Source of the DNA: an uncultured Clostridia bacterium
GTDB lineage: Bacteria > Bacillota > Clostridia > TANB77 > CAG-508
Direction of reading: 5' to 3'
DNA: 64,000 nt
NCBI GenBank assembly: GCA_944388935.1
Contig: CALXKK010000008.1
Coordinates: forward strand, 1-64,000
The position numbers and the translations under genes are program-made. Positions 235 through 59,694 of the stretch are shown piece after piece. Within the stretch, counting starts at the first letter, position 1. Every line of letters starts with the position of its first letter. Under the pieces are notes generated by a model that worked only from the letters and a program-made list of their open reading frames with translations, searched no databases and was not told the origin of the DNA.

Positions 235-3200
235 TTATTTCTTATTTGTTTTCTTTTGCACTTTTGTGTTACTTTTCTTTTGTCTTTTTGTTAGAACTAC
301 TGCGTATCTTAAGGTTACGCTTTCTAGGGCTACTAATCCTACTAAAGCTATTAGTAATCCTACTGGAAGCTCACCAGTTTCTACGCTTATTGATACTGTT
401 GCTTGGTCTGTATTATCTTTATCGTTATTATCTTTGAATCCTGGTACATTGTCTGTTTGTATTAATGATACTTCATTAATCTTGTTACCCATATTGTTTC
501 CAGATGTATTCCAGTTTAATAATACTGTGTATTCTTTTGTTTCTCCGGCTCCTATCTCTGGTATTACCTTCGTTATAGTTCCGTTATTTACTTCCCAAGT
601 ACCATCGTTATTTGCTAAGCTCATTCCTTCTGGTATTTTATCTTCTATTATTGCTCTACCTTTTACCTCTCCAGTGTTCATAACTTTTATCTTGTATTCT
701 ACTTGTACACTTGTATTTTCTGTGCTCTTTCTGTAGATATCAACTTTTTCTAGTTTTCCGTTTGTTGCGGATCTTCTATTACCATTTACTATTATTCCAG
801 TTATTTCCTTTTCTACTCCGATGTTAAATGGTTTTGGTTCGTAGTAATAGTAAACATCTATTGTATTGTTAACTACGTCGTTTCCGTTTTCATCCTTGGT
901 TATTTCTACTTTCATAGTTCCATTTGGTTCTTCCGGAATTTCGACTAATTTATAATAATCAAATTCTTTAGCTGTTGTCTTGTATGGGTCGTCTTTTGTT
1001 CCATCTATTACTACTTGTGATGATTGCAATTCTCCGGTTTCTGGATTTATTTCTTCTATTTCTTTTCCAGTTGTCTTATCTACATAGTGTACTATTACTT
1101 TTGCTGGTTGATAATAGTAATATGTTACTACTAATTTGTCTTCTGTCATTGTACCTTGTGCATTTGTTGGTAATACACTGTTTCCATCTTTATCTGTTGT
1201 AGCTACTTGGTAGCTTAAGAAGTCTTTAGATTTAATATCATATGGGTCTCCTACATGTCCTTCATGCATTGTTGGTGGTTCTAATTCTTCACCTGTTTGG
1301 ATATCTATATGATGTTCTTCAACTCCTGCAGATTTCTTTACATAGTAGTATGTTACTACTGTCTTGTTGTTTGTTATATTACCATACTCATCTGTTTCTA
1401 CTGTTAGAGTTCCTTCTGCATTTGATGGTACTTCTACTAAGTCGTAGTTTTCAAATGTCTTTTGTTCTGTTGTGTAACTGTCGCCTTCGTGTTTTGTATC
1501 ATCTATTACCGGATTAGTTAATTTTTCACCTGTTGTTTTATCTATGTAGTGTACTTCTAATACTGCTTTTTTAATGTAATAGTAATTAACTGTTACTAAA
1601 TATTCTCCCATTACTCCGCTTGCGTTGCTTGGAAGCTTGCTTGTTACTAAATCATATCCTTCAAAATTCTTGCTTGGTATGTCGTAACTTTCTCCTACTT
1701 GAACACTATGTTCTTCTGTATATAAGATTTTTCCTGTCTTGTCATCTATGTGGTTTTCTAGCAATCCTGTGTATACTGGCTCGTAGTAGTAAATTAATGT
1801 CTGCTCGTCTTTTGTCATTCTAATTGTTGTCTTTTCTGGGCTTTCTACTAATTTGTATCCTACGAAGTCTTTTGAGTTTGTTACAAATTCATCTCCGACT
1901 AGTCCTTCCTTAGTATAAGGAGCTTCTAAGTCTTTAATTTCTTTGTGTGTTACTGGATCTCTTGCTACATATCTTACTGTTGCTTTTGTGTTTTGTAAGT
2001 AATAATAAGTTACGTTTGTGTCTTCTACTGTCATTGTGCCAGTAGTGTTTCCACTATCGCTTACTAATGTATATGTCTTACCGTTGTAAGAAATTGTATC
2101 TTTCTTATGTTCATCATTTGTATTATATGCATCATCTACATGTCCATCGATTTGCTCATTTGTTGCTAATACTAAGTTGTTTGAATCGTCTGAGTCATCA
2201 TCTTTCTCTAAGTAATGAATTATTACTTTAGCTGGTTTTAATCTGTAATAATATATTACTTCTTGTGGTTTTTCTTCATCATATTTTTCAATTGTTCCAT
2301 CTGCATTTTCTGGTAATTTTTCTTCGACTAACTCATATTTTTCGTTAATGTTATCCGCTGGTTCTGTTGTATATGGGTCTCCTTCTTTACCTTCTATTAC
2401 TTCGTCTGGAACTTCGCTTCCATCAGCATCTGGAACTTTATCTGTTGTAGTTGTTCCATCTGGTTTCATGATGTAATGATGAACTGTTACTTTTCCGTAT
2501 TTATTAGTATTTGTAACTGTCTTGCTTTCGTTTCCAATTGAAGTGTCGTAGTATTTTAAGTCGCCTTCAGTCTTTTCTTCTTCTGTTAATGTGTAAACTA
2601 TTTCATTATTAGAAGAATCATATTTTGGTAAGTCTTTGAATATATCGTTCCATTTATTTGGATTGTTGCTATCCTGCGTTGTCGTGGTGTTAGCAGTTCC
2701 TGGTTTTGCTACTTCCAATGTTCTTACACTACCATCACTTCCGGATAACTTAAATATCACTCTTGTTGGACGTTGTCCTAGTTTATTGTCGCTATCATCC
2801 CAAACTTTGCTTACTGGAATATTTATAACGAATCCTGTTGTAGTTGTCCAATTTGCTGTTACTTCTTCACTTGTTCTTTCAGGTGTTTCGTATTCAATAT
2901 GTCCTTTTACAACGTTCTCGATACTTACTGTATCTTGGCTTATTCCTGTGTATACAACTTTTATTGCTTTACTTATCTGTACTTCTTTTGTTGTTGTCAT
3001 TTGTATATCATTTACTTCTTGTTCCCAAGTAATTGTCTTTCTATCTGCATCGTATGTTCCGCCATCTAATTCAGATTTACCTTCGTCAATTGTATATGGT
3101 AATTGGTCTACCAATACTACCTTTGCATTTCCTTCATAATCTGATATTTGTGCTGTGTAATTTATGTTGTATGATATTTCTTCGTCTAGGCTATCTATTG

Positions 3201-6200
3201 TAGATGTTCCTGTCTTAGATATATCTTGCTCATCTTTTGGCTCTACATATGTATGCTCTGGCTCTTCTGGAACTTTCTTATCTTGCTCTCCATCGTTGAT
3301 GTAGGCTGTATTCTTAATTGTTGTTCCGTCTATTATTTGGTTAACAGTTACTTTGAACTCAACAACTTTTTCTTCGCCAATTCCTAAAGTAACATTTATT
3401 CCGTTTTGTAAATCTGTAGCTGTCTTGTTACTGTCTGCAACATCTCCAACTTTTATTGAACCTTCTACAAATGTTGTTCCTGTTGGCACTGTATCTTTTA
3501 CAAGTACTGTACCTGCTCTTGTTCCATCATTTCTTACTCTAATTCTGTAAGTAATTGTGTCACCTTCTCTAACTTTACTTCCACTTACTGGGTCTGATTC
3601 TTTATGTGCTGTAATATTTGCTTTTGTTACTGTAGTTGTAACTTCGTTTGTTGGCTCGTTATCTATTGTAGCTGTGTTCTTTAATTCTTTTGTATATTCT
3701 CCATCTGGCAATGAGTCTACAATTCCTGCAAATGTTACATCTACACTTCCGAATTCCGGTACTTCTACTTGTATTCCATTCTTTAAGTTTTGTTCTGTGT
3801 AAACTGTTCCTAAGTCTCCTACCATTATTTGTGTGTTACTATCAAAGCTCATACCTTCTGGTAAGGTATCTCTTAGAGTTACTGTTGCGCCTAGGTTACC
3901 ACTATTTGTAATTCTTACTGTATATGTTACTTTTTCTCCTTCTGCAGCTTCTTGCTTATCAACTAATTTTTCTGCGCTTATTATTGCTTTGTATATTGTT
4001 GTATCAAAACTGTTTGTTGTTTCGTCGCTTGTTTTCTCTGGAGTTAGTAACTTAATATGTCCTTTAACATTATTTGTTATCTTTTCTTGGTTCATATCTA
4101 AACCAGTGTAAACAACTTTAATGTTCTTTGTAATATTTACTGAACCTTTACCATTGTAGCTATCTAAGTCTGATACATTTTCTGTCCAAGTTATAGTCTT
4201 GCTTGTAGAATTATATGTTCCACCATCCAAGTTTGACCTTGCCTCGTCTATTGCATATGGCAAAGTATCTACTATTGTTACTTCTGCATCTCCCATGTAG
4301 TCTGTTACATTTGCTGTGTAAGTTACAGTGTAGCTTACTTCTTGGTTTGCAGATGTAATTCTGTCTGTACCTGATTTTGTTACATTATTTGTTACTGTAG
4401 GTGTTTTTAATCTGTAATAGTAGATTACTTCTGTATCATTTTCTGTTATTGTTCCTGAAGCATTTGCTGGTAATTTTTCAGTCACTAATTCATAGTTGGC
4501 CTGAATATTTTCTTCTGGGTTTGTTGTGTATTCTTCTCCTTGAGCTCCTTCTATTGTTTGGTCTGGAATTTCTGTTCCGTCCGTGCTTGGAACTCTAGTT
4601 GTAGTTGTTGTTCCATCTGATTCCATAATGTAATGATGTACTATTACTTTTCCGTATTCACTTACGTTTGTTACAGTCATCGCATCTTGGTCTACAGTTC
4701 CTTTTGAATAGAATTTATTTCCTAAATCTTCCTCATCAACCGTATATTTTATCTCGTTACCGTAATTATCTAATTTTGGTAAGTCATTAAATGTGTATAC
4801 CCAATTGTTTGCGTTTGAAGGGTCTGCGTTTGCTTCAGCTGTTAACACTTGCTCATATGAGCTGTTTACTCCTTCTCCTGTTCCTGTAAGTATCATTGTT
4901 ACAGAACCTGGACGTTTATTTGCCATATTGTCTCTATCGTCCCAAATCTTTGTTACTGTTACAGATGTTTTTTCGTCTGGAACTCCAAATGTATTTGTTA
5001 CAGTCTTACTTGAATCATCTACACTACTTGTATAGAACTTACTATCCATATCTTCTTCGCTTAATGTATAAACAATTTCGTCACCATTTACAGAATTGTA
5101 TTTTGGTAATCCTGTGAATGTGTAAACCCAACGATTGCTATCAGCATTATCCACATTTTCTTCAGCAGTTAATGTGTGTTTATATGGATTTCTTCCATCA
5201 TTTTGGTCATTTCCTGTTAATACTAATGTTACATTATCTGGTCTCTTACCTGCTGCGTTTCCATTATCATTCCATACCTTTACAACAGGTACTGAAATTG
5301 TATCGTTAGGAACTACGAATTTATTTGTAATTGTCTTAGAATTTTGGTCTACCTTACTGTTTACACTTGTGTAGTAAATGTTATCTAATTCTTCACTTAG
5401 TACATAATTTATTTCATCACCATTTGCGTCGTATTTTGGTAAATTATCGAATGTATATCTCCAATTATTGCTATTTGAAGAATCTGCATTTATTTCTGAT
5501 GTTAATTCTTGCTTATATGTTTGTCCATTTCCTTTTAATACTAATGTTACTGAACTTGGACGTTTTCCGGCTAAGTTTTCATTGTCATCCCATACTTTTG
5601 TTACTGGTACAGAAATTCTTTCATCTGGTACTACAAATTTATTTGTAATAGTAAATCCAGAAGTCATATTTCCTTCTATAACCTTGTTTTCTACTGTATA
5701 GAATATGCTTCCTGTTTCTAACTCATCAGCTGTGTAGTTTATTTCTTGTCCTTGTGCGTCATATTTTGGAACACTAAATGTATGACTCCATTTGTTTGTA
5801 TCTCCATCAACGCTATCTGCTTCTGTTACTGCTTCAGAAGCTACTACACTGTCTCCATTCTTAACTTGTAATGTTACACTTGTTGGTCTTTTGTTTGCAC
5901 TATTACCATTATCATCCCAAACCTTTGTAACTGTTACATCTATCTTGTCTCCTGGAACTTGGAATGTATTTGTAACTGTTCTTGTGTCTTGGTCTACGTT
6001 AGATTTAATATAGAAATCATTATTTAAATCTTTCTCGTTTATTGTGTAAACTACCTCGTTACCATAATCATCATATTTTGGTAAATCTGCAAATGTGTAT
6101 TCCCAAGTGTTGTCGTCGCCTTGGACTGCATTCGAAATTGTTACTTCTTGCTCCTTAGAGATATCAACTCCTTGTCCTTTTCCAGTTAAAGTTAACACAG

Positions 6201-9200
6201 CACTCGTTGGACGTCTATTGTTAGCATTGCTATTGTCATCCCAGTATTTCTTAGCTGTAACTTGTGTCTTATCATCCGGTACACTAAATGTATTTGTTAC
6301 TGTCTTGCTTCCTTGGTCTACGCTTGCAACATAGAAATTGCTATTTACATTTTCCTCACTTAATGTGTATGTAATTTCATCACCATTTAAAGAGTTGTAT
6401 TTTGGTAAGTTTGGAAATGTATATGCCCACTTATTACTATCTTGTGAATCTACATTATCTATTGTTAATGTATGTCTGTATAGACCACTTCCATCGTTTC
6501 CATTTAATACGAAGTCTACACTTGCTGGTCTCTTGTTTGCAACATTTCCATTATCTGCCCAAACTTTTACTACTGGTACATCTATTGTATCTGTTGGAAC
6601 TTTAAATGTGTTTGTTATTGTCTTCATATCTTGCTCTACATTGCTATTTTCAGCTGTGTAGTAAATATTGCTTAATTCCTCGCTTAATGTATATACAATT
6701 TCGTTACCATTTGCGTCGTATTTTGGTAAATCTGCAAATGTATATGTCCATTTATTACTATCTTGTGCATCTACATTTTCTGTATTAGTTAATGTATGTT
6801 TATATGGACTATTTGTATCGTTTGCATCACTACTTGTTAATACCATTGTTACTTCAGTTGGACGTTTTCCTGCACTGTTATTGTTATCATCCCATACCTT
6901 TGTTACAGGTACATTTACTAAGAACTCTGTTGGTATATCTTTTGTATCTTCTACTGTATCTGTTTTTTCCGGTGTTTTTAAGTTTATTGTTCCTGTTACT
7001 CTGTTAGATACATTTTGTTGTGTTACATCTAAGTCTTTATATACTAAACTAATATTTTTCGTTATATTTATTTGATTATTTGTATTTGTAAATGTATTTA
7101 TTCCTGTAATACTTTCTGTCCATGTAATAGTTTTAGAATTTGCATCATAGCTTCCACCATCTAGGCTAGAGCTTTCTTCTACAATTTCATATGGAAGATA
7201 ATCTACTATTGTTACCTCTGCATCTCCAATATATATATCTACATTTGCTGAGTATGTAATTGTATATGGCACTGCTTGGTCTTTTTCCGTTACTTTTGCT
7301 AATGTACTATTTTTATCAATCTTACTTTGTTCAATAGTAGGGTCTTTAAGCTTGTAATAGTATGTTACAACTATTTGGTCTATAGTCATTGTACCATTTG
7401 CATTTGCTGGCATTTTTTCTGCTACAACTTCATAGTTTTGTGCTACATTTGAAGATGGGCTTGTATTATATGGATCAGTTGCCTTTCCTTGAATTAATTC
7501 GTCTTCTACCACTCCACCATCTTTAGAAGGTACTTGTGTTTCTGTTCCATCAATATAGTGATGAACTAATACACTTGTGTCTTTTAATCTGTAATAGTAA
7601 ATAACTTCTGTTGTTCCTTCTGTTATTGCTCCACTTGCATTATCTGGTGTACCTATTAATTCACAAACACTACTAACATTATCTGCTTCTTTCGTTGCGT
7701 AGATATCTCCAACATTTCCTGTTTGTACCACATCTTCTGCAACTCCTCCACCTTCTAATGGTACTTTATCTGTTGTTCCTTCGATATAGTAATGTGTAAT
7801 TACTGTTCCTTTTGTTTTTGTATTTGTAATATTTACTGTAACTACATCGTTTGCTTTTGTTACACTAAATTCTGCTGTTGGATTTTCTGGTAAATCGTAA
7901 CCTTCTGGTACTTCTACCTCTGTTGCAATATATTCTCCAGATTCTAAGTTATTTGTAATTTGACCTTTTGAGTCTGTTGTGTATGTTCCAATAATATTAT
8001 TTGGACTTGTCTTTAATGCAATATTAAACTTAACTCCTGCAAGTGGTGTTTTTCCATCTTCGTCGTATTTATTAATTACTACTTGTCTTGAAACTTTCTT
8101 GTAGTAATATGTTACGACTACTTCTGGTGCTGTATATTTTCCAGTTGCATTTGATGGAGTTTCTACTAATTCGTAATTATCGCTTAATAGGCTATCTTCT
8201 ATTGCATTAGTTGTGTACTCTTCGCCTTCTTTTCCACTATCTGTTACATCTTGTGCAACTTCTCCAGATTTTAATGGTACTGGTGTTGTTGTTCCATCTA
8301 TGTAGTGATGTACTATTAGTGGTACTTCTTTTACTTCATAATAATATGTTACTTCTATTGTTTGTGAAGTATATTTTCCTGTTGCATTTGAAGGTATTAC
8401 ATAGTTACCATTTGTATCTTTTTCTAGTTCATACTGCTCTAAATCTAGTTTTGGACTTGTAGTATATGCATCTCCTACTTTTCCTTCTAATGTTTCGTCA
8501 TCTGCAACTGGTGTTGTTGTGTATGCTCCATTACTATCTTTTAAGTAGTGGTGAACTATTACCTTTGCTGCTTTATCATTTTCAATTGTAAATTCATGAT
8601 TTCCATCTGCTCTAAATTCTACTATTGTTGGTTCTGTGTTTAATACATATCCTTCTGGTGCTACTATCTCTGTTATTTGATATCTTCCGAATGGTATCTG
8701 TGTTATTGCTTGTCCTTCACTATTTGTTGTTACTTCTGTATGATATAGCTCTGAACCGTTTAGACTAAGTTTTACACTATTTATTGTAAATTTATCATCT
8801 CCGCTACTTGTTGATGAGTTCTTGTAATATCCAAAGTGTAAGTAATACATTTGTCCACCCTGTAAAACTGTTGTATAATCTTGGGCTTTTTGCTCACCTG
8901 ATATATATATAAATCTTACAGAACTACTATTATTTGTACTATATGATGGTGCACTTGTACTACTTGTTACTGTTGCATATCCATAATCATTGTTTTCACT
9001 TGCTATTTCTGCATTTACTGTTAAATCATATTTTCCTGTATAATTTGTTAAATCAATTGGTATATATGAATTTGCTGTTGTACTGTTTTGTCCTTGGTTA
9101 TTTGATTCATATCCATCTTTACTATTATCTACAAAGTTATATGATGTACTACTTGCTTCATACACTTTTATACTATTTATTACTACTTGGTCATTTCCTG

Positions 9201-12200
9201 TATCTATACTACTATCTTTTCTATATCCTAAGTGTAAGTAATATGTTTGTCCACCTTGTAATACACTTGATGTATAATCTTTTGCTGTTGTTACACTACT
9301 TGATGTTCCTGATATATACATAAATCTTCCTGTACTATTACTATATGTTGGTGCTGTTGTAGTTTGATTTATTGTTGCATATCCATAATCAGCACTTTCA
9401 CTTGATACACTTGCATTTACTACTACTACATATTGTCCAGATTTATTGCTTAAGTTTATTGGTATGTATGAGTTCGCTGTTACATTTTGAATTCCAGCAC
9501 TTCCTCCATTTGCTGTTTGGTATGTTTTACTATTTGTTGGCGTTAATGTTCCATCTTCATTTTGTACAAAGTAATACGTTCCATTATTAGTTAAATCGCC
9601 TAATACTCCTGTTACTTCTCCTTTTTCTTTATTTACACCTATATATTCTGTTCCATTAGCTACTATATCTCCCATTATTTCTTCGTTGTCCGGATTTGTT
9701 CTCTCATCTAGTTGGTCCAACTTAAATGTCGCTCCTGCTATTTTTGTATTATTATCTTCACTGTCTACTTTATTAATTGTTATCTTATTATCCTTTAAAG
9801 CATACGTTACAACCACATGTTTATCTTCTGTCATATTTGTAAATTGTGGCATTGTATATATTCCATCTTCTGATTCTTTAAATTGCCATTCTTCTCCATT
9901 TACCGTTATTCCTATTATTTCATAGTTCTCGTCCGGTGTCATTACTATCTTTTGTATACTATTATCTCCATATTTTACCGTTTCATATGGATCCATATCT
10001 TCCCCAGATATACTTCCACCTTTTATTCCATCTACTTCATTTACATCAGTTGTGATTTTGAATTGTTTTAAATTATTTTCAATAACTAATTCTTGAACTT
10101 CTGGAACTCCTACTTGATTTACAACTTCAAGTATCATGCCATCAGAACTTGCTTGATTTTCTAAAGTATGTCCATCAACTTCTATGGTATCACTTTCAAA
10201 ATATCCTCCTGCTACTACTTTGCCATCATTTGTTTCTGTTACTGATAAAATTTCATCATCACTACTTCCTCCAAATGATTTTGCCCATTCTACTTCGCCT
10301 TCTTCATTGTATTTTATTATTAAAGCGTCATTTTCTCCGTTTCCTTTTAATTCTTGCTTACCTGCCTGAATTCTTACCATACCATTTAAAAGTCCGCCTG
10401 CAATGACACCTCCATCACTTGTTTCTGCTACTGAATAAATATAATCATCATGACTTCCTCCTATATTCTTTGCCCATTCTACTTCGCCACTACTACTGTA
10501 TTTTATTATTAGACCATCACCACTTCCATTACTTGTTAATGTTTCATTTCCTACTTGGATTGTTTTACTATAGAAATCTCCTCCTGCTATATAGCCTCCA
10601 TCTTCTGTTGCTGCTACTGAATTGATATAATCACTACTACTTCCTCCTATATTTTTTGCCCATTCTACTTTACCCGTGCTACTATATTTTATTATTAGAC
10701 AGTCAGTACTTCCATTACTTGTTAATGTTTCATTTTCTACTTGGATTGTACTTTGGAAATCTCCTCCTGCTAGGAAACCTCCATCACTTGTTGAAGCTAC
10801 TGAATTTACTGAGTCACTAATACTTCCTCCAAATGATTCTGCCCATTCTATCTCTCCAAACGCATTATATTTTATTATTATAGCATCAGAATAAGATGTA
10901 GAAGTACTATTATTTGTTATTACTTTATTTCCTACTGTAATTGTACTACTTTGGAAATATCCTCCTGCTATATAGCCTCCATCATTGGTCTGTGCTACAG
11001 AAGTTACTCTATCATTTCTATCTCCTCCAAATGATTTTGCCCATTCTATTTCGCCTGAACTACTATATTTTATTATTAGGCCATCAGAATATGATGTTGA
11101 ACCATTATTTGTTAATGTTATATTTCCTGCTTCGATTGTACTACTTTGGAAATATCCTCCTATTATATAGCCTCCATCACTGGTTTCTGCTACTGAGTTA
11201 ATTTGGTCATCCCAACTTCCTCCTATATTCTTTGCCCATTCTACTTCTCTTCCGGCATTATATTTCACTATTAGACCATCTATAGTTCCATTACTTCTTA
11301 ATGTTTCATTTTCTACTTGGATTGTATCACCGAAATATCCTCCTGTTATATAGCCTCCATCACTTGTTGATACTACTGAAGTAATCTCGGCAGAGGAATA
11401 ATAATTGTTTCCAACTGATTTTACATTTGTAACAACTGGGTTAGGTAATTCTATTTCTTGTTTGCCATATTTAATAATAAATCCATCCGTACCTCCTTTA
11501 TTAGTTAATATTTTATCGCCTGCTTGTATTGTACTACTAGAAGAATACCCACTTACTACATATTCACCATTATCAAGCTGTACTACAGAATTAACTTCTT
11601 CATCCTTACCACCTTTAATTTGTCTAATCCATTCAATTTCTCCATCACCAAATAATTTTATTAAAAATCCATCAGCTTCTGTTGCTGCTAATTCTTCATT
11701 TTCTATTTCAAGATTTCCATTAAAATGTCCTCCTACTATATAGTCTCCATCATTGGTTATTGCTACTGAATTGATATAATCACTACTACTTCCTCCTATG
11801 TTTTTTGCCCATTCTACTTCGCCTGTACTACTATATTTTATTATTAGACCATCATATCCACCATTATTTGTTAATGTTTCATTTCCTACTTGGATACTAT
11901 CAATATTGAAATATCCTCCTGCAATGGCACCTCCATCACTGGTTGAAGCTACTGAAGTAATTTGGTCATAACTACTTCCTCCAAATGATTTTGCCCATTC
12001 TACTTCGCCAGAATTACTATATTTTATTATTAGTCCATCAGGCCATCCACTATTAGAATTTGTTATTGTTACATCTCCTACTTGGATACTATCACTATAG
12101 AAATATCCTCCTACTATATATCCTCCATCACTTGCTTCTGCTACTGATCGTATACTGTCATCACTACTTCCTCCTATATTCTTTGCCCATTCTACATCGC

Positions 12201-15200
12201 CACTACTACTGTATTTTATTATTAGACCATCAGAACCATAACTTCCATTATTTGTTAATGTTTCATTTCCTACTTGGATTGTACTACTGAAATATCCTCC
12301 TACTATATATCCTCCATCACTTGTTGTAGCTACTGAATTTATAGAATCTTGATAACTTCCTCCAAACGATTTTGCCCATTCCACTTCTCCAGAATTACTA
12401 TATTTTATTATTAATCCACTTCCAGTACCATAAATATCTCTAAATGTTTCATTTCCTATTTGAATTGTTCCAGAAAAACTTCCTCCTACAATATAACCTC
12501 CATCACTTGTTGACGCTATTGAACTAACATGATCAGTACCAGTTCCTCCAAATGATTGTATCCATTCAATTTCATTTTCCAAATTATATTTTATTATTAG
12601 ACCATCAGAATATCCATTACTTGTTAATGTTTCACTTCCTACTTGAATTGTTCCAGTGAAATCTCCTCCTACTATATAGCCTCCATCACTTGTTGTAGTT
12701 ACTGAGTTCATATGATCATCTTCACTGTCTCCAATTAATTCAGCATTTGTAACACTAGGAATATTTATTTCTTCATATTTCAAAATCATTGCAGAACTAT
12801 ATCCGTTATTTGTTAATCTTTTATTTCCTACTTGGATACTATCACTATAGAAATATCCTCCTGCTATATAGACTCCATCATTGGTTTCTGCTACTGAATT
12901 GATATAATCAAGAGAATTTCCTCCAAACGAATCAGCCCATTCTACTTCTCCTTCTCTATTGTATTTTATTATTAATCCATCATTATTTCCATTACTTGTT
13001 AATTCTTCATTTCCTACTTGGATACTATCACTATAGAAATATCCTCCTACTATATACCCTCCATCACTCGTTGAAGCTACTGATGTAATTTCATCATCTC
13101 CACTTCCTCCTATATTCTTTGCCCATTCTACTTCTCCTTCTGAACTATATTTTATTATTAGGCCATCATATGGACGATATGAAACAGTACTATTATTAGT
13201 TAATACATAATCTCCTACTTGGATTGTACTACTTGAGAAATATCCTCCTGCTATATAGCCTCCATCACTTGTTTCTACTGCTGATTCGATATAATCAAGA
13301 GAATTTCCTCCAAACGAATCAGCCCATTCTACTTCTCCTTCTCTATTGTATTTTATTATTAATCCATCATTATTTCCATTACTTGTTAATTCTTCATTTC
13401 CTACTTGGATACTATCACTATAGAAATATCCTCCTGCTAGAATTCCTCCATCACTTGTTTCTGCTACTGAATATATATAATCAGAACTACTTCCTCCTAT
13501 ATTCTTTGCCCAGTCTACTTCGCCTGTGCTACTATATTTTATTATTAGGCCATCAAAAGTATATGGATATGTTGTAGTATTAGTATTAGTTAATGTTTCA
13601 TTTCCTACTTGGATACTATCACTTGCGAAATATCCGCCTGCTATATAACCTCCATCAGTTGCCTCTGCTACTGAGTTTATATAATCTCTATCACTTCCTC
13701 CTATTGAAGTTGCCCATTCTACTTCGCCTGTGCTACTGTATTTTATTATTAGGCCATCATATGCATGATATGAAATAACAGTACTATTATTAGTTAATAC
13801 ATAATCTCCTACTTGGATACTATCACTTGCGAAATATCCGCCTGCTATAATACCACCATCACTTGTCCCTGTAACTGAAGTAATTTTATCTTCAAGATTT
13901 CCTCCTATTTGTTTTATCCATTCTACTTTACCTGTTGTTCTATATTTTATTATTAATCCATCATTGTTATCATCAGCTTGGTCAGAAGCTGTCTCTGTAC
14001 ATGTTAGTGTTTCATCTCCTATTTGGATTGTTCCGCCAAAATTTCCACCTACAACTATTGCACCGTCAGAGGTTGTTGTTGTTGTTTTAATTTCAGCATC
14101 ATCATAATAGCTATTTCTTCCCCCAAACGAATCTGCAAATGTTAACTTCATTTCTGTTGGTTTGCTATTTCCTTCTCTAGAAGCTCCTATTCCAAAATAA
14201 TAAACTTCACTTGTGTCATATTTTTCTGGTGCTTCTAGCTCTATTGCTTTGTAAAATCCTTCTGTTAAATCTGCTATTATTTCTCCTTGTGTATTTGTCG
14301 TTAATGTGTAGTATTCTCTTCCATTTATTGTTTCTTTGGTTCCTAATATTTCTCCTTTGCTGTTTGTTGCTGGTACTTCTCCTTCATCTATATTATATAT
14401 TGCAAATTTAACATTAGCTAAAAGCTCTCCTGTTTCCGCATCTTTCTTTATTAATCTAAATGAAGGGCTATCTTCTATTGTTAGTTTTACTGTATTACCA
14501 TCAACTGTATAGTTCTCGCTTGTTCCCTCTGTGTTAATAAATTCTAAACTTCCATTTGTTCCATCTACTTTAAATGTTATATCTTTTACTTTTGCATAAC
14601 CCTCTGGCGCCAATACTTCTTTTAATGTGTAAACTGCTTCTTCATCTCTTCCTTCTATATATTGGTATAAATCATTTATTGTTACTGTTCCATTTGTATT
14701 TGTCGTATATTCTCCTATTACTTCTGTACCCTTATATAGTTTGAATTTTGCTCCTCTTAATGGTGTAACTTCTGAATTTGCAGAATTTGTTGTATCTTGG
14801 CTTGTTGTTGCATCATTACTTACTTCTGTATCTATTGTTTTCTTTATTTTTAATATTTCTAGACTATATCTTGGTATTTTTTCATCTTCTATATTCATTG
14901 TAATTGTTGGTATGCTGTCTTCTTCTGTTGTGCTTTGACTTGCTATTGTTCCTGAAGATGTTTGTATGCTATAATTTCCACTATTATTTCTTATTCTAAA
15001 TCTTACTTGACTTGCCAAATAATACCCTTCTGCTTTTATTTCTTCTAGAGTATAGTATTGATTTATAGTTAATCCAGTTACTGTTACCTCTCCATTTTCA
15101 TCTGTTGTTAATACTTTACCATCTTCTGGTAGATTGTATCCTGTTAATTTATATTTTACATTTTGTAAAACATTTGATGTTCCTTGCTCTGTTTTATGTA

Positions 15201-18200
15201 TTTTTATACTTGCTTTTACTTCATCCTCTACCTTAACAGTTACTTTATAATCTTCTCCTTCATTTTTGATAACTTGCATGTCTTCTTTCGTTGTTCCACT
15301 TGTTTTTTCTATTGTTAAAGTTCCATTTTCGTCGACATGACCAATAAACCTAATAACATCTGAATTTAATTCATAGTTATTTGGTGTCTTTATTTCTTGT
15401 ATTGTATATGCTTTTTCTGCATATAGGTTATTTATTGTAAGTACTCCTTGTTCATTTGTTACAGCTGTTTTGCTTTCTCCTGTTTCTTCATCTGTAAAAC
15501 TGTATGTTGCACCAGGAATTACTTTGTCCTTTCCAGTTTGATATTTTGTTAATTCTAAGTTATATTTTTCTGCTATTCTAAATCCTAATTTGTTTGGTTC
15601 TACTTGTGTTCTATATTTACCTTGATCTGTATCTAAACTAAAGTATATTCCATGATGACTATATGCTACTTTGTTAAACTCTACACCATTTGGTATCTTT
15701 ACTGTGTAGTTAAATACATATTCTGCTCCTGTTGGCATTACATAGTCTCCAAGGTCTATTAAGAATGTTTTTACATTATCCCAATTTGTTACTTGGTCTG
15801 CTGTTTTCCATCCATTTTCTGCCTTGCTTAAATCTCTATTTGGCTTTTCATTTTCTGAATAATATACTGTTACATATTGTTGTAATTCTGCTGGTACTTC
15901 TATTCCAGTATCCTTCATCTTTGTTGTAAACTCTGAAGCTAAATCTCCTCCGCTTAATACATATGTATTTCCTTCGAATGGTATTTTACCTAATATTTGT
16001 ATTTCGCTTATTGTACTTCCATAATTGTTACGCATTTGTACTCCTATTGTTACTTCTCTTTCTTCGTTTTCTACTACTGCATAACTTGGTCTTACATCTG
16101 CAACTTGTGGTGATATTACTTGGCTTCCTTTGTCATCATAATTGCTTCCTACTTGGTTTGTTAATAAGCTATTTGGTGATACCATGCTTAAACTTATAGT
16201 ATCATGGTTTACTTGTTCTGTTGTATTTAAATTATCATTTACATCATATATATCTTCTGCACTGTAATAATAATCGCTTACTTCTTCATTTGATGCATAT
16301 AACTCTATATTTCTACTTATTGTTGCTACTCTTGGATCAGGTGTTATGTCTACATCAACTGTTATGCTATATGTTTGTGGTGTTGTATCATCATTTTTTG
16401 TATTTATTTTTATTAATTTGATACCATCTTGGTCTATTAACTCATAACTTGTAATACTTACATTATTATTGTTTATTTGTACATTATTAATTTGGGCATC
16501 AATTATTTCTTCTGGTAGTTTAACAATAAAACTTCCATCCACCCATCCTACTTGATTATTTGCTTCGTTGTATCTTGCTGTTATTGTTAACTTTTCATTT
16601 CTCTCAGTTGTTTGTGTTGATATTGTATTATTACTTATTCCTATATCTGCTATAGAATATGGTGCTTCATAATGTGCTTGGTGTGTATCTGTATTTACAT
16701 AGTTTCCACCTAAGTATCCTACTAAGTTTGATTGAATATATTGTAAATTATCAAATGCTTCTCTTGTATAGTTTGTTGTTATATATTCGTCATCCAATTC
16801 TTTTATGTTATATACTGTTAAATAACTATTTGCATTTGTCTCGCTTGTTTCTATTCTTATATGTTTTACTGGTAGTTCATATTTATATGGATTGCTTGCT
16901 GTATACTTGTTCCAATCAGATTTTGTAAATGTTACTAATAAATCTCCTGTTTCTTCATCATATACTTTTATCCATCCATCTTCTTTTAATATGCTATCTG
17001 CTCCAGAAAATGCTATTCCTATATTTGTAGTTACATTCTCCATACTTTCTTTATTTGAATCTGTTTTTATAAAGTTGTCTACTACTTGTGCTTTATCATT
17101 TTCTGTCTCTTTCATTACAAGTCCTGTAGATGCTCCATCTGTTCCTGTATATGCATCCCATCTTACTTGGTATGTATCTTCTGTTTCTTCCGCACTTACT
17201 CCATTATATATTCTTAATGGTTTTTGTTTTGATACTATATATCTATAACTTGGATAAGATATATATTTTCCTACTGTTATATCAAATCTTGCTGATTCAC
17301 CTTGCATTTTTCTATAGCTTGCTACTATTGTTGCTGTTGCTGTGTTTGATTTATATGGATTTGTAAATTCTTCATTTGGGTTATTATACCCTTCATAATA
17401 TGTGATTACTGGTATTTTTATTGTTACTGTTTCTTCTCCTAAGCTTTGATATGCTTCTATTGGATATGTTACTCTTACGCTATATGAGTTACTTCTTGAT
17501 AGTCCTGTTGTTACTATTCCATCTTCTCCTACTACTGCTTCTCTATCTATTGTTAGTGTTTTTGTTTCTGCATCATAATTAGAAGTAGCATTACTTCCTG
17601 TGTATACTACCTCTAATGGGTCATATCCATTTAATTGTGGTATTTGTGCTTCTACATGATTGCTCTTTAATATTAATTCATTATCTGTTTCACTTGTTCT
17701 TATAGAGAAATCCAATGTTATTTTTCCATTTTCTTCGTCCAATCTATTCTCTATATCATCATAATCTAAATATGTATTTGTTATTTGTGCTCTTGTTGTT
17801 CCATACCAATCTATATTAAAATTAACTGTTTTTGTTATTTGGACTTCTTGGTTACTCTCGTTTACATATGTTCCTGTTAAAGTTACACTATCTACTTTGC
17901 TGTAGTTATTTATATTATTTCCTATCGCCGCATTTTCGCGTGATGAATAAGAATAGTCGCCACTTCTTACTATTCCTGTTAATAATTTTTGTGTTCCATT
18001 GTTTAAATCATTAAATTCTATCTCTCTTACATTACTTCCAACGTAGTTATCTTTTAACTCATCATCTTTTGGTAGGGCTGTTTGGAAATAGAAGTTTCCA
18101 TCATTTATCGTAATTTTTGCATCTTTAAGATACCCTGCTGTGTCTACATTTAGTTCCATATACAAGGTATCTTCTTGTCCTATTTCCTTACTCGTTCCCC

Positions 18201-18630
18201 TTATGCTCTCTGCATAGCCATCTCCGTTTAAGTCACGCAAAAAGAAGGCGTCGAATTTAACGTTGCCATCTGTTCCTTCAACGATATTTTCCCCGTCTTT
18301 TACTTCGTCATATGTCATTGCTCTTGCTAGCTCTGGATTTGATTTTAGCATATTAGCTTTACGTATGTTATTTACAACCAATAAAGCTATTATTGCGATA
18401 ATTGCAATTATTACAACTATTGCAACCGCACTTGTTACTATTCGATTCTTTGAGCCAACATTTTTGTTTTGGAATTTACTTATTAAACTTGCTATACCTG
18501 TAAATCTATCGCTATTTTTATCTTTTTTTCTGTTCTTTAAAGTATAGTTCTCTTCCTCTCTTAGACTCTCAAGGTTTTCAGACTTCTTTGCATTGTTCAC
18601 ATTCTTGTTTTTCTCGTCTTTTTTCCCCAT
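235..18630 (-). CDS. Giant multidomain surface adhesin with three beta-propellers, Cna-B, MucBP and DUF11 domains (6131 aa)
   Basis: Cell-surface stalk or adhesin; ligand unknown. In order: basic/acidic cytoplasmic tail (1-63); membrane segment (about 64-88); a large beta-rich N-terminal region (100-1020) opening with the EF-hand-like motif RDLNGDGYAE; four SpaA-type Cna-B domains (1025-1500); 21 propeller blades (1500-2835); an InlB-B-like repeat (2850-2945); a Cna-B domain split by two inserted repeats (2948-3350); four MucBP-like domains with a Cna-B between them (3350-3768); seven tandem KVWDDN Cna-B domains (3906-4657); DUF11/isopeptide domains; an eighth Cna-B; seven MucBP-like domains; a DUF11-like domain; VETGE (6083-6087); membrane segment; basic tail. 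Cna-B units keep the Lys of TKVWDD, the Glu of YTLSEE and the Asn of TNTF, as expected for self-made Lys-Asn isopeptide bonds. There is no LPXTG. Start: ATG preceded by GTAGGTG at 7-nt spacing. Its C-terminal third is paralogous to the upstream 5206-aa gene. Domain limits are by eye. Confidence 0.93.
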   Translation of the reverse strand: MGKKDEKNKNVNNAKKSENLESLREEENYTLKNRKKDKNSDRFTGIASLISKFQNKNVGSKNRIVTSAVAIVVIIAIIAIIALLVVNNIRKANMLKSNPELARAMTYDEVKDGENIVEGTDGNVKFDAFFLRDLNGDGYAESIRGTSKEIGQEDTLYMELNVDTAGYLKDAKITINDGNFYFQTALPKDDELKDNYVGSNVREIEFNDLNNGTQKLLTGIVRSGDYSYSSRENAAIGNNINNYSKVDSVTLTGTYVNESNQEVQITKTVNFNIDWYGTTRAQITNTYLDYDDIENRLDEENGKITLDFSIRTSETDNELILKSNHVEAQIPQLNGYDPLEVVYTGSNATSNYDAETKTLTIDREAVVGEDGIVTTGLSRSNSYSVRVTYPIEAYQSLGEETVTIKIPVITYYEGYNNPNEEFTNPYKSNTATATIVASYRKMQGESARFDITVGKYISYPSYRYIVSKQKPLRIYNGVSAEETEDTYQVRWDAYTGTDGASTGLVMKETENDKAQVVDNFIKTDSNKESMENVTTNIGIAFSGADSILKEDGWIKVYDEETGDLLVTFTKSDWNKYTASNPYKYELPVKHIRIETSETNANSYLTVYNIKELDDEYITTNYTREAFDNLQYIQSNLVGYLGGNYVNTDTHQAHYEAPYSIADIGISNNTISTQTTERNEKLTITARYNEANNQVGWVDGSFIVKLPEEIIDAQINNVQINNNNVSITSYELIDQDGIKLIKINTKNDDTTPQTYSITVDVDITPDPRVATISRNIELYASNEEVSDYYYSAEDIYDVNDNLNTTEQVNHDTISLSMVSPNSLLTNQVGSNYDDKGSQVISPQVADVRPSYAVVENEEREVTIGVQMRNNYGSTISEIQILGKIPFEGNTYVLSGGDLASEFTTKMKDTGIEVPAELQQYVTVYYSENEKPNRDLSKAENGWKTADQVTNWDNVKTFLIDLGDYVMPTGAEYVFNYTVKIPNGVEFNKVAYSHHGIYFSLDTDQGKYRTQVEPNKLGFRIAEKYNLELTKYQTGKDKVIPGATYSFTDEETGESKTAVTNEQGVLTINNLYAEKAYTIQEIKTPNNYELNSDVIRFIGHVDENGTLTIEKTSGTTKEDMQVIKNEGEDYKVTVKVEDEVKASIKIHKTEQGTSNVLQNVKYKLTGYNLPEDGKVLTTDENGEVTVTGLTINQYYTLEEIKAEGYYLASQVRFRIRNNSGNYSIQTSSGTIASQSTTEEDSIPTITMNIEDEKIPRYSLEILKIKKTIDTEVSNDATTSQDTTNSANSEVTPLRGAKFKLYKGTEVIGEYTTNTNGTVTINDLYQYIEGRDEEAVYTLKEVLAPEGYAKVKDITFKVDGTNGSLEFINTEGTSENYTVDGNTVKLTIEDSPSFRLIKKDAETGELLANVKFAIYNIDEGEVPATNSKGEILGTKETINGREYYTLTTNTQGEIIADLTEGFYKAIELEAPEKYDTSEVYYFGIGASREGNSKPTEMKLTFADSFGGRNSYYDDAEIKTTTTTSDGAIVVGGNFGGTIQIGDETLTCTETASDQADDNNDGLIIKYRTTGKVEWIKQIGGNLEDKITSVTGTSDGGIIAGGYFASDSIQVGDYVLTNNSTVISYHAYDGLIIKYSSTGEVEWATSIGGSDRDYINSVAEATDGGYIAGGYFASDSIQVGNETLTNTNTTTYPYTFDGLIIKYSSTGEVDWAKNIGGSSSDYIYSVAETSDGGILAGGYFYSDSIQVGNEELTSNGNNDGLIIKYNREGEVEWADSFGGNSLDYIESAVETSDGGYIAGGYFSSSTIQVGDYVLTNNSTVSYRPYDGLIIKYSSEGEVEWAKNIGGSGDDEITSVASTSDGGYIVGGYFYSDSIQVGNEELTSNGNNDGLIIKYNREGEVEWADSFGGNSLDYINSVAETNDGVYIAGGYFYSDSIQVGNKRLTNNGYSSAMILKYEEINIPSVTNAELIGDSEDDHMNSVTTTSDGGYIVGGDFTGTIQVGSETLTSNGYSDGLIIKYNLENEIEWIQSFGGTGTDHVSSIASTSDGGYIVGGSFSGTIQIGNETFRDIYGTGSGLIIKYSNSGEVEWAKSFGGSYQDSINSVATTSDGGYIVGGYFSSTIQVGNETLTNNGSYGSDGLIIKYSSSGDVEWAKNIGGSSDDSIRSVAEASDGGYIVGGYFYSDSIQVGDVTITNSNSGWPDGLIIKYSNSGEVEWAKSFGGSSYDQITSVASTSDGGAIAGGYFNIDSIQVGNETLTNNGGYDGLIIKYSSTGEVEWAKNIGGSSSDYINSVAITNDGDYIVGGHFNGNLEIENEELAATEADGFLIKLFGDGEIEWIRQIKGGKDEEVNSVVQLDNGEYVVSGYSSSSTIQAGDKILTNKGGTDGFIIKYGKQEIELPNPVVTNVKSVGNNYYSSAEITSVVSTSDGGYITGGYFGDTIQVENETLRSNGTIDGLIVKYNAGREVEWAKNIGGSWDDQINSVAETSDGGYIIGGYFQSSTIEAGNITLTNNGSTSYSDGLIIKYSSSGEIEWAKSFGGDRNDRVTSVAQTNDGGYIAGGYFQSSTITVGNKVITNNSTSTSYSDAIIIKYNAFGEIEWAESFGGSISDSVNSVASTSDGGFLAGGDFQSTIQVENETLTSNGSTDCLIIKYSSTGKVEWAKNIGGSSSDYINSVAATEDGGYIAGGDFYSKTIQVGNETLTSNGSGDGLIIKYSSSGEVEWAKNIGGSHDDYIYSVAETSDGGVIAGGLLNGMVRIQAGKQELKGNGENDALIIKYNEEGEVEWAKSFGGSSDDEILSVTETNDGKVVAGGYFESDTIEVDGHTLENQASSDGMILEVVNQVGVPEVQELVIENNLKQFKITTDVNEVDGIKGGSISGEDMDPYETVKYGDNSIQKIVMTPDENYEIIGITVNGEEWQFKESEDGIYTMPQFTNMTEDKHVVVTYALKDNKITINKVDSEDNNTKIAGATFKLDQLDERTNPDNEEIMGDIVANGTEYIGVNKEKGEVTGVLGDLTNNGTYYFVQNEDGTLTPTNSKTYQTANGGSAGIQNVTANSYIPINLSNKSGQYVVVVNASVSSESADYGYATINQTTTAPTYSNSTGRFMYISGTSSSVTTAKDYTSSVLQGGQTYYLHLGYRKDSSIDTGNDQVVINSIKVYEASSTSYNFVDNSKDGYESNNQGQNSTTANSYIPIDLTNYTGKYDLTVNAEIASENNDYGYATVTSSTSAPSYSTNNSSSVRFIYISGEQKAQDYTTVLQGGQMYYLHFGYYKNSSTSSGDDKFTINSVKLSLNGSELYHTEVTTNSEGQAITQIPFGRYQITEIVAPEGYVLNTEPTIVEFRADGNHEFTIENDKAAKVIVHHYLKDSNGAYTTTPVADDETLEGKVGDAYTTSPKLDLEQYELEKDTNGNYVIPSNATGKYTSQTIEVTYYYEVKEVPLIVHHYIDGTTTPVPLKSGEVAQDVTDSGKEGEEYTTNAIEDSLLSDNYELVETPSNATGKYTAPEVVVTYYYKKVSRQVVINKYDEDGKTPLAGVKFNIALKTSPNNIIGTYTTDSKGQITNNLESGEYIATEVEVPEGYDLPENPTAEFSVTKANDVVTVNITNTKTKGTVITHYYIEGTTDKVPLEGGGVAEDVVQTGNVGDIYATKEADNVSSVCELIGTPDNASGAITEGTTEVIYYYRLKDTSVLVHHYIDGTETQVPSKDGGVVEDELIQGKATDPYNTSPSSNVAQNYEVVAEKMPANANGTMTIDQIVVTYYYKLKDPTIEQSKIDKNSTLAKVTEKDQAVPYTITYSANVDIYIGDAEVTIVDYLPYEIVEESSSLDGGSYDANSKTITWTESITGINTFTNTNNQINITKNISLVYKDLDVTQQNVSNRVTGTINLKTPEKTDTVEDTKDIPTEFLVNVPVTKVWDDNNNSAGKRPTEVTMVLTSSDANDTNSPYKHTLTNTENVDAQDSNKWTYTFADLPKYDANGNEIVYTLSEELSNIYYTAENSNVEQDMKTITNTFKVPTDTIDVPVVKVWADNGNVANKRPASVDFVLNGNDGSGLYRHTLTIDNVDSQDSNKWAYTFPNLPKYNSLNGDEITYTLSEENVNSNFYVASVDQGSKTVTNTFSVPDDKTQVTAKKYWDDNSNANNRRPTSAVLTLTGKGQGVDISKEQEVTISNAVQGDDNTWEYTFADLPKYDDYGNEVVYTINEKDLNNDFYIKSNVDQDTRTVTNTFQVPGDKIDVTVTKVWDDNGNSANKRPTSVTLQVKNGDSVVASEAVTEADSVDGDTNKWSHTFSVPKYDAQGQEINYTADELETGSIFYTVENKVIEGNMTSGFTITNKFVVPDERISVPVTKVWDDNENLAGKRPSSVTLVLKGNGQTYKQELTSEINADSSNSNNWRYTFDNLPKYDANGDEINYVLSEELDNIYYTSVNSKVDQNSKTITNKFVVPNDTISVPVVKVWNDNGNAAGKRPDNVTLVLTGNDQNDGRNPYKHTLTAEENVDNADSNRWVYTFTGLPKYNSVNGDEIVYTLSEEDMDSKFYTSSVDDSSKTVTNTFGVPDEKTSVTVTKIWDDRDNMANKRPGSVTMILTGTGEGVNSSYEQVLTAEANADPSNANNWVYTFNDLPKLDNYGNEIKYTVDEEDLGNKFYSKGTVDQDAMTVTNVSEYGKVIVHHYIMESDGTTTTTRVPSTDGTEIPDQTIEGAQGEEYTTNPEENIQANYELVTEKLPANASGTITENDTEVIYYYRLKTPTVTNNVTKSGTDRITSANQEVSYTVTYTANVTDYMGDAEVTIVDTLPYAIDEARSNLDGGTYNSTSKTITWTENVSDLDSYNGKGSVNITKNIKVVYTGLDMNQEKITNNVKGHIKLLTPEKTSDETTNSFDTTIYKAIISAEKLVDKQEAAEGEKVTYTVRITNSGNLGATVTLRDTLPEGMSFDSNTQIMVGDLGTVYTEQNLKNGIQVEVPEFGSVDVTFAGIVDSLPDGEYTKELKNTATIDNEPTNEVTTTVTKANITAHKESDPVSGSKVREGDTITYRIRVRNDGTRAGTVLVKDTVPTGTTFVEGSIKVGDVADSNKTATDLQNGINVTLGIGEEKVVEFKVTVNQIIDGTTIKNTAYINDGEQDKKVPEEPEHTYVEPKDEQDISKTGTSTIDSLDEEISYNINYTAQISDYEGNAKVVLVDQLPYTIDEGKSELDGGTYDADRKTITWEQEVNDIQMTTTKEVQISKAIKVVYTGISQDTVSIENVVKGHIEYETPERTSEEVTANWTTTTGFVINIPVSKVWDDSDNKLGQRPTRVIFKLSGSDGSVRTLEVAKPGTANTTTTQDSNNPNKWNDIFKDLPKYDSSNNEIVYTLTEEEKTEGDLKYYDTSIGNESKTVTNTNKYGKVTVHHYIMKPDGTTTTDKVPDADGSEVPDEVIEGKEGDPYTTEPADNINEKYELVEEKLPENADGTIEKYDEEKPQEVIYYYRLKPAKVIIHYLEKDDDSDDSNNLVLATNEQIDGHVDDAYNTNDEHKKDTISYNGKTYTLVSDSGNTTGTMTVEDTNVTYYYLQNTKATVRYVARDPVTHKEIKDLEAPYTKEGLVGDEFVTNSKDFVGYKLVESPEKTTIRMTKDEQTLIYYYEPVYTGLLENHIDDKTGKILYTEEHSVQVGESYDIPSKNFEGYDLVTSKLPSNASGVMGEYLVTVNYYYIKKAVLEVHYIDKTTGEKLTNPVIDDTKHEGDSYTTEQKTFENYDLVEVPSNAEGTLTVETDEYGNITNNKTVVTYYYVKKSAGVEEHHIDIQTGEELEPPTMHEGHVGDPYDIKSKDFLSYQVATTDKDGNSVLPTNAQGTMTEDKLVVTYYYYQPAKVIVHYVDKTTGKEIEEINPETGELQSSQVVIDGTKDDPYKTTAKEFDYYKLVEIPEEPNGTMKVEITKDENGNDVVNNTIDVYYYYEPKPFNIGVEKEITGIIVNGNRRSATNGKLEKVDIYRKSTENTSVQVEYKIKVMNTGEVKGRAIIEDKIPEGMSLANNDGTWEVNNGTITKVIPEIGAGETKEYTVLLNWNTSGNNMGNKINEVSLIQTDNVPGFKDNNDKDNTDQATVSISVETGELPVGLLIALVGLVALESVTLRYAVVLTKRQKKSNTKVQKKTNKK
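840..2500 (-). repeat. Seven tandem MucBP-like domains near the C-terminus of the 6131-aa protein
   Basis: Seven units of about 70-90 residues run in tandem. Each opens with a V-x-V-H-[HY]-Y/I strand, has a central G[EH]xG[DE]xY[DT] turn, and ends in a V[TN]YYY strand. This is the MucBP/MucBP-like layout found in mucin-binding and LPXTG adhesins of Firmicutes. The same seven-unit block is present in the paralogue at about 19690-21355. Confidence 0.75.
4660..6915 (-). repeat. Seven tandem Cna-B isopeptide domains (KVWDDN type)
   Basis: Seven units of roughly 105-110 residues each start with a version of VTKVWDDNxNxxxKRP and end with [VI]TN[TK]F. The conserved Lys, Glu (YTxSEE or YTxDE) and Asn fit intramolecular Lys-Asn bond formation. 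Neighbouring units alternate between VxMVLTG, LTLTG and LQVKNG subtypes in an order also found in the paralogue, which suggests amplification in multi-domain blocks. Confidence 0.85.
8570..9785 (-). repeat. Cna-B domain interrupted by two tandem beta-sandwich-like repeats
   Basis: The first half of a SpaA/Cna-B domain (KITINKVDSEDN ... GATFKLDQ) and its second half (EGQAITQIPFGRYQITE ... EIVAPEGY) are separated by about 280 residues. The insert holds two related repeats of about 115 residues (about 8760-9510). Each has a TANSYIPI[ND]L opening, a DYGYAT strand, an R-F-[MI]-YISG strand, an L-QGGQ-YYLH[LF]GY strand and a closing INS[IV]K strand. I do not recognise the repeat family; the pattern suggests a carbohydrate-binding or jelly-roll-like fold. 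Confidence 0.65.
10110..14135 (-). repeat. 21 propeller-blade repeats arranged as three sets of seven
   Basis: 21 repeats of about 60-68 residues carry the core [VI]EWAK[NS][IF]GG-SxDxI-SVAxTSDGGY-[IA]GGYF-[ST]IQVG-DGLIIKY. This is the SBBP/delta-60-like blade pattern. The array is divided by two Pro-containing linkers (near 12750 and 11420) where the EWA strand is replaced by VTNAELIG or VTNVKSVG. Counting gives exactly seven blades before, between and after them. The first blade also lacks EWA (ADSFGG), as expected for a propeller start. Confidence 0.85.
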
Positions 18631-38000: not shown

Positions 38001-38859
38001 CTAATTCTACTGTTGGGTTTACTGTATCGTCCATTGTTATAGGTTCTTGGATTTGTCCATTGTGAGTTTTGTAATAATTTATATTGCTTGGGTCTTTTGC
38101 TGTTTTTACAAGGTATTGATATAATTTTTCCATTGCATCATATCTTGTTTGGTTAACATCTTCCATAGTTGTATAAGAACCTACTGTTTTATCTGCTATA
38201 GATATTGATTGGAATGATGGTTCTCCATCAAAATCTACATGATAAATTCCAGAATTCTCGTCAGATTTTGTATTTGTAAAGTACCAAAGTGCCATTTGTT
38301 GTACAACATCTATGTCATCGTCTGTTAATTCTTTCTTTAAAGAATCAGACATTCCTGTTGCGTTAAGTAAATCTTCCCTATCTTTTGCTGCTTGCTCTGT
38401 TTTCTTGTTTTGATATTCTACAGAATCACTTGTTTGTTTATAGTATGGTATATATGAGTGATCTAATATCCAAGTTGCAGCATAGTAATAGTCATCATTT
38501 TCGAAGATTGAAGGTACTAAACTAGCTTTATCTGAGAAATTTAACATTCTATCATATGTTTGCTTAAAATTGCCTGGTGTTGCTGTATAGAATCCTCTTT
38601 CTGCTTTTAAACAATATATTGTATTGTCGAAGTTCATTGTTGTTCCATCATTTTCGTATACAATAACTTTCCAAACTCTTTTATTTCCGCTGTTTATTTT
38701 ATATCCATATTGTTTTCCGTTTGTTTCTCTCCTATATTCACTTAATCCAAATGTTACTGGGCTTGTAGCTGCAAATACTGATGTTGACATCATAACTGAC
38801 AAAAGCATTATTATAGCTATTGCACTAAATATTGCAGCGATTCTCTTAAAAACTTTCAT
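35056..38859 (-). CDS. Thioester-domain (TQXA-type) surface adhesin with four FDLALRKF repeats (1267 aa)
   Basis: Secreted, membrane-tethered adhesin. Signal peptide 1-30 (cleavage near VFA-AT). Thioester domain about 35-400: Cys83 in the motif IYCLKAERGFY and Gln188 in VQQMALWYF are the expected thioester pair (family signature ΦQxAΦW). Such domains bond covalently to host amines in streptococcal adhesins; host use here is inferred. Four repeats of about 200 residues follow, each starting FDL[SA]LRKF or FDLALKKW, with a DUF11-like isopeptide fold (TYTIRVYNEG ... GY ... LPxxLEF). Acidic linkers PGQEDDDDFEKV and DSTPDN separate them. A hydrophobic C-terminus (last 25 residues, ending KKYVI) has no LPXTG. 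Start: ATG, with GGATGG upstream and a signal peptide that begins immediately. It differs from the upstream 1595-aa paralogue mainly by lacking three SpaA domains. Confidence 0.93.
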   Translation of the reverse strand: MKVFKRIAAIFSAIAIIMLLSVMMSTSVFAATSPVTFGLSEYRRETNGKQYGYKINSGNKRVWKVIVYENDGTTMNFDNTIYCLKAERGFYTATPGNFKQTYDRMLNFSDKASLVPSIFENDDYYYAATWILDHSYIPYYKQTSDSVEYQNKKTEQAAKDREDLLNATGMSDSLKKELTDDDIDVVQQMALWYFTNTKSDENSGIYHVDFDGEPSFQSISIADKTVGSYTTMEDVNQTRYDAMEKLYQYLVKTAKDPSNINYYKTHNGQIQEPITMDDTVNPTVELDGSNYIVGPYKINKNNDLPYELEAKFTDQNGTDLNGKYTLLNSSKQAVSGGTTIKDLVGQSFYISIPSSNIDDISKIKFSYSGVYRTSSKGYWTSTQNPDTVQPLVAVVKQETPISGEKEVSVAKREFDLSLRKFISEVNGKSIDREPTVDTSNLNKVIDGTKVTTATYNHPKNPVAVKPGDIVTYTIRVYNEGEIDGYVGEITDYLPAELEFINDTANYAEETDFNAGYGWKINPSNNRIITTNKLAYSSQAADRDQNSNNLIPAYNGTTLSYKEVKVKCRVKNSTESLKKITNLAQITQETDSKGGAVTDRDSTPNGNFTLPTDTDLPNYKDDEINSNREYIPGQEDDDDFEKVIIQEFDLALRKFISGKNNTSVIGREPSVDVTNLANGTSTTATYNHPKKPIDMNRGDVVIYTIRVYNEGSIDGYANKIVDKLPAELEFLPDNEINKEYEWQVSEDGRTVTTDYLSKEKETESRQNLIKAFDGTTLSYKDVQIACRIKDDAEFGKKLTNLAEITESKDSEGNDVIDRDSETNNVQVPTDEELPNYKDDEINNEYIPGQEDDDDFEKVRVVYFDLALRKFITAVDDQEVTNRIPQLSIGEDGNIHYEHTKDPVEVENGNIVTYTIRIFNEGLIDGYATEVKDDIPDGLKFLPDNPINKEYRWQESEDGQSVVTDYLSKAQEENDGDNLIKAYNPELGITDGNPDYRDVKIAFQVTEPNTSDRILVNTAEIKDDSDSSGDPIDDIDSTPDNNNEWNTEDDLDKEFVKVKYFDLALKKWVSKAIIIDEDGTQTVQETGHTGDEDPEEPAKVDLGRRDIDKVTVKFEFQIKVTNEGEIAGYAKEVTDYIPEGLRFVQEDNPDWYTREPLNERERVATKQLENTLLQPGESATISILLTWINGQDNMGLKTNIAEISQDYNDSNTPDIDSTPDNFEEGEDDIDDAPVMLTVALGDAKLYIGITALVAVALGGGIFIIKKYVI

Positions 38860-59654: not shown

Positions 59655-59694
59655 AGTTTTAAATTTATTTCTTTTAAAAAAGGGATGTGATTTT

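Follow-up and report, generated by a model that had tools for sequence, protein, structure and literature searches.

Residues ~1514–2834 of a 6131-aa giant surface protein, encoded by one unbroken ORF (235..18630, −) in the 64,000-nt stretch of DNA from an uncultured gut Clostridia bacterium analyzed here (the window), almost certainly form three consecutive, independently closed seven-bladed β-propellers. The whole explanation that we favor, with a probability of roughly 0.75, is that these closed rings with their Velcro strands act as a multivalent binding module on a stalk. Long blade arrays often leave ring number and ring borders open; here the borders are encoded in the chain and conserved.

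A blade model built from the 10110–14135 region was used to scan the ORF for repeats and found exactly 21 blades, spaced 60–70 residues apart. One blade comprises strands A (INSVAETS), B (GYIVGGYF), C (DGLIIKYS), and D (GEVEWAKSFGG), with a small hairpin (TIQVGNETLT) between strands B and C. Of the 20 inter-blade segments, 18 hold the Trp-bearing outer strand D; it is missing only after blade 7 (EINIPSVTNAELIGDSEDDHM) and blade 14 (GKQEIELPNPVVTNVKSVGNNYYSSAE), where there is instead a linker carrying a new strand, VTNAELIG or VTNVKSVG, respectively. Blade 1 is itself preceded by a D-like strand that lacks Trp, TEMKLTFADSF (core KLTFADSF; called as a strand at residues 4–14 of the model). A first-pass annotation of this DNA had claimed 21 blades divided 7+7+7, and the exact count and the position of the two breaks agree with it; it had also located correctly the replacement of the EWA strand, but the new strand belongs to the following ring, which it opens, and blades 7 and 14 simply stop after their third strand. 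Two randomly placed breaks among 20 junctions would fall exactly at 7 and 14 with P = 1/190, and a chance reading of the break position is removed because tens of homologues also break after blade 7.

Each group of seven follows the formula D-(ABCD)x6-ABC, so that the last blade can be made whole by the D strand at the N-terminus; judged from the sequence, this is the usual one-plus-three Velcro closure, presumably made three times over. The break is thus more than an altered strand and marks the end of one ring and the start of the next. Ring 1 (blades 1–7; 12763..14157, −; blade scan and residues 4–468 of an AlphaFold2 model) has its own N-terminal Velcro strand, TEMKLTFADSF. It is followed by linker 1, EEINIPSVTNAELIG (12727..12771, −; inter-blade segments and model), which contains, in order, the end residues of ring 1, a short linker, and the first strand of ring 2, and which has counterparts at the same position in homologues (e.g., ELPNPVVTNAKVIGG). 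Ring 2 (blades 8–14; 11467..12753, −; blade scan and models) opens with VTNAELIG, and linker 2, GKQEIELPNPVVTNVKSVGN (11407..11466, −; inter-blade segments and rings 2+3 model), leads to ring 3 (blades 15–21; 10108..11433, −; blade scan and rings 2+3 model), which opens with VTNVKSVG. Pfam matches to the EMC1 propeller, WD40, DUF2690, aspartyl protease, and other families in the ring region were rejected as identities, as they include no individually significant stretch, and were taken for generic repeat cross-matches.

The predicted fold agrees with this grammar. AlphaFold2, which may be biased by repeat alignments, was supplied with an alignment of 17 two-ring homologues and returned high-confidence propellers with seven four-stranded blades per ring for both rings 1+2 (mean pLDDT 89.6, pTM 0.75) and rings 2+3 (mean pLDDT 90.6, pTM 0.62); ring-to-ring orientation is not fixed at these pTM values. 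The N-terminal and linker segments are called as strands in both models. In Foldseek searches of the PDB, CylK structures were the top matches for both models (E about 1e-22), in one case with a fit over 441 columns at 3.5 Å rmsd, and by sequence CylK was also the top PDB match (phmmer, 6e-16), with an alignment that spans ring 2 and covers only the propeller part of CylK. The solved structure of CylK's C-terminal domain is a propeller of seven blades that has Ca2+ sites at their junctions (PMC8916777). From the secondary structure, the Foldseek fits, and the blade grammar we infer that each ring closes, in line with the first-pass annotation, which had proposed closed rings rather than an open solenoid and had named the fold and the blade counts of homologues beforehand as tests that could refute it. 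The loop that corresponds, by inspection, to the Ca2+ site at each CylK blade junction is often acidic (62% D and 15% E in 967 blades), and calcium may be bound at the blade junctions of these rings as well.

Homologous arrays were matched in 61 of 390 genomes sampled from the window's family, and 40 further, non-overlapping loci from a second set of genomes (GTDB, mostly uncultured Clostridia) follow the same rule. Most full-length relatives carry 14 blades, split 7+7 by a linker that follows blade 7, and in nearly all full-length proteins the array starts at about residue 1450–1600. In an automatic tally of arrays that were anchored on the N-terminal side and closed by a linker, counted without inferred blades, the first ring has seven blades in 33 of 42, a count of arrays that share kinship and are not independent events; inspection by eye attributed several of the remainder to errors of the rule and a few to real six-bladed rings. 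Among the arrays that the automatic linker rule miscounted, L086 and L091 (read as 14) and L109 and L104 (read as 6+1+7) have by eye a linker after blade 7, and the 13-blade reading of L044 and L045 was rejected, each hiding a double blade and being 7+7. Two further apparent 13-blade arrays, L038 and L089, were re-read as 6+7; L080 is a single array of eight blades, and L071, L072, L082, and L095 are single rings of seven. A protein from another family of the same class (L188:1-7272, −) has five groups of seven (35 blades, two HMM matches that each span two blades being counted by eye), joined by mostly proline-rich linkers of the PTPTP type, and its C-terminal side is cut by the contig end. 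Blade numbers of 7, 14 (7+7), and 35 (5x7) thus dominate, as expected for closed rings, and the exceptions, 6+7 and 8, are themselves made of normal closed-ring sizes.

Among the arrays seen in the window's family, 7+7+7 occurs only in the window's protein, and the others of this ring type have at most two rings. Wider samples show related propellers to be rare (at class level in 7 genomes out of 391, at phylum level in 17 out of 398), and a search of a phage collection gave two weak relatives only. Elsewhere in the phylum, a single-contig genome encodes a 1497-aa protein (L198:2871-7361, +) with ~21 short related blades by hand count, without clear linkers.

The ends of the giant protein and its stalk fit a sortase-anchored wall adhesin, which would be secreted and attached by sortase. 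Near its start lies a hydrophobic segment (18370..18444, −), followed ~16 residues later by ELARAM, an A-x-A-like motif; of 73 homologous giant ORFs, most have PELARAM, ELAKAM, or EIARSM after the hydrophobic segment, and the pair could possibly be an atypical signal peptide and signal peptidase site. The pre-ring region (14149..18369, −) carries SpaA (prealbumin-like) stretches at its end (Pfam SpaA, 1.6e-35, four stretches), and its N-terminal ~1000 aa matched no Pfam family. On the anchor side of the rings, a tandem stalk (388..10080, −; Pfam and motif scan) consists of Cna_B (eight stretches, 2.6e-114), MucBP (11 stretches, 1.1e-64), SpaA (two), and DUF11 (three) domains, the Cna-B/MucBP context described by the first-pass annotation. 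In the motif scan, several Cna_B domains have Lys, Glu, and Asn at the positions expected for isopeptide bonds, which these domains would be predicted to form. The putative C-terminal signal (238..387, −) consists of SVETGELP, a hydrophobic stretch, and a Lys/Arg-rich tail, and is an x-TG rather than a canonical LPxTG signal of sortase type; relatives end in x-TG, SPQTGD, LPTTGG, or similar, some of them LPxTG-like. Eight matches to sortases were found in the genome, of which one is interrupted by an internal stop. The rings are preceded by about 1490 residues and followed, on the anchor side, by ~3290. The three rings are a module inside the distal half of the protein, for which the earlier term "head" is inexact, and the binding region proposed along with it would be a predicted function.

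Other features of the neighborhood were observed alongside this gene. The next giant gene (ORF 19012-34632, 5206 aa) contains a related but strongly degenerate propeller of ~6–7 blades (32515..33771, −), separate from the three rings and barely detected by the blade model. In L097, L081, L168, and L070 it has phmmer matches (1e-119 to 4e-54) to domains that follow the ring array; the degenerate type lies ~600–950 aa downstream of the array in L097 and L070 and is present in two copies in L081 and L168. Two adjoining surface proteins (35056-38859 and 39196-43983, −) have an N-terminal thioester domain (Pfam TED, 2.7e-9 and 1e-9, respectively) and DUF11/SpaA repeats, and four large surface protein genes stand in a row beside rpoC/rpoB. 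Further along, 59635-63972 (+) encodes a single-module NRPS-like protein with condensation, adenylation, carrier, and terminal reductase domains.

In the mechanism that we propose, the coding unit of each ring would start with a single N-terminal outer strand and continue with seven blades, the seventh without an outer strand of its own; the N-terminal strand would zip onto the last blade (1+3 Velcro) and close the ring on itself. Short linkers would tie the closed rings to one another, and the wall-anchored stalk protein would present them as rigid discs in a row; there, several rings could provide avidity through multivalent binding of a ligand that repeats, for example a polysaccharide or a glycan of the matrix or of mucus. 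Because of the analogy with the Velcro-closed propeller of Bap1/RbmC (see below), binding of a repeated ligand would be the most likely function of the rings, which we hold at somewhat better than even odds.

Alternative readings of the region differ in how they account for the same observations. Blades are about equally similar across ring borders and within rings (mean identities 52–59%), for which reason similarity alone fails to define rings, and which would suit a continuous open or superhelical solenoid with the linkers as neutral variants; such a solenoid is nevertheless extremely improbable, given that the great majority of complete homologous arrays break with a linker after blade 7, that every ring opens with a dedicated strand, and that the predicted closed rings match CylK. 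That the closest solved relative is an enzyme raises the possibility that the rings are catalytic, with lyase or alkylase-like activity (cf. CylK and virginiamycin B lyase). However, CylK needs Arg105 of its N-terminal Ca2+ domain and Tyr473 at the domain interface (PMC8916777), the alignment to it is confined to the propeller, and the rings are placed among stalk domains, so that an enzymatic role, while possible, is quite improbable. The main rival to a binding module holds that the rings are passive, rigid, and bulky spacers, whose number would set length or shield the cell while the N-terminal ~1000 aa binds. The location of the rings within the stalk, where ~1490 aa extend farther from the cell, would agree with this, as would the variation of ring number by whole units, like that of the stalk repeats of Periscope proteins (PMC9704523). 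Periscope proteins are marked by nearly identical repeat domains whose number varies among strains; here ring number differs between species and the rings have diverged from one another. Rings would be costly spacers next to the Cna_B and MucBP domains already there, and the near-constant start of the array in nearly all full-length relatives suggests a specific role; we regard the spacer reading as unlikely, though less so than the enzymatic one.

A phylogeny of rings places rings 1 and 2 of the window side by side (support 90/80, below the strict threshold) and its ring 3 with the second rings of relatives (98/96), and the simplest reading suggests that the first ring of a 7+7 ancestor was duplicated. 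The assembly is a 41-contig draft, in which repeats could affect the exact ring number, and all other arrays of this type seen in the window's family have at most two rings, both of which would be compatible with a third ring created from a two-ring gene by misassembly. Such an artefact is very improbable, because the rings have diverged (long repeats within the DNA match at best at 87% over 300 nt), linkers 1 and 2 differ in sequence, and a five-ring protein (L188) exists elsewhere. Ring 1 has two blades, 4 and 6, that share 92% identity; together with the cross-ring identities, this points to ongoing exchange at the level of blades. Tentatively, and at somewhat less than even odds, the surface-stalk family may expand by whole closed rings (1, 2, 3, or 5), while blades recombine and homogenize within and between rings. 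If so, duplication or loss of rings, as beads with built-in closing strands, would tune valency or reach.

The blade family is already known, and every curated model scores below its cut-off. LipL53 (NF047494) matches the window at 3e-51 over nine stretches, yet with 174 of the 400 bits required, and is a family of Leptospira lipoproteins unlike the window's protein; of the SBBP/delta-60 repeats to which the blades had been assigned at first pass, delta-60 (TIGR02608) matches at 1e-3 (18.7 of 76.5 bits), and a profile search of the genome for SBBP (PF06739) gave no match. CylK (PDB 7RON, 7FH6-7FH8) resembles the rings in blade sequence, seven-bladed form, and structure, but has one ring in an alkylating enzyme, without a stalk or tandem rings. 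Several propellers per chain are also found in the eukaryotic DDB1, CPSF160, and LRP5/6, whose families and architecture are unrelated to those of the window's protein.

A Velcro-closed propeller is known from adhesins: the eight-bladed propeller of Vibrio cholerae Bap1/RbmC binds biofilm matrix polysaccharide, and adhesion suffers when Bap1 lacks its Velcro strand (PMC10102183). These secreted Gram-negative proteins have one eight-bladed ring, and the comparison concerns the Velcro closure and the proposed binding role rather than sequence. A tandem layout is known from the highly repetitive WD40-like propellers, which have 14–15 or more blades, blade-count peaks at 7 and 14, and a 15-blade array predicted as two rings (PMC9218822). 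They share with the window tandem rings of similar blades, but form a continuum of counts with borders that are sometimes undecidable (as in a 47-blade case), whereas in the window a new first strand marks each border in the sequence. The arrangement had been called new at first pass, which holds for three rings in the window's family and not for tandem propellers as such. The literature searched on propellers in Cna-B or LPXTG adhesins, an incomplete coverage that is no proof of novelty, held nothing on this architecture. As far as that literature shows, what is new is a bacterial stalk family in which a fresh first strand encodes each ring border and the number of rings varies by whole units, three in the window and five in the protein of another family. 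With borders that can be checked across scores of related arrays, it offers a natural system for asking whether propellers duplicate ring-wise or blade-wise and how a chain of like blades finds the correct register on closing, and it points to a group of very large, uncharacterized surface proteins of gut Clostridia with multi-ring modules.
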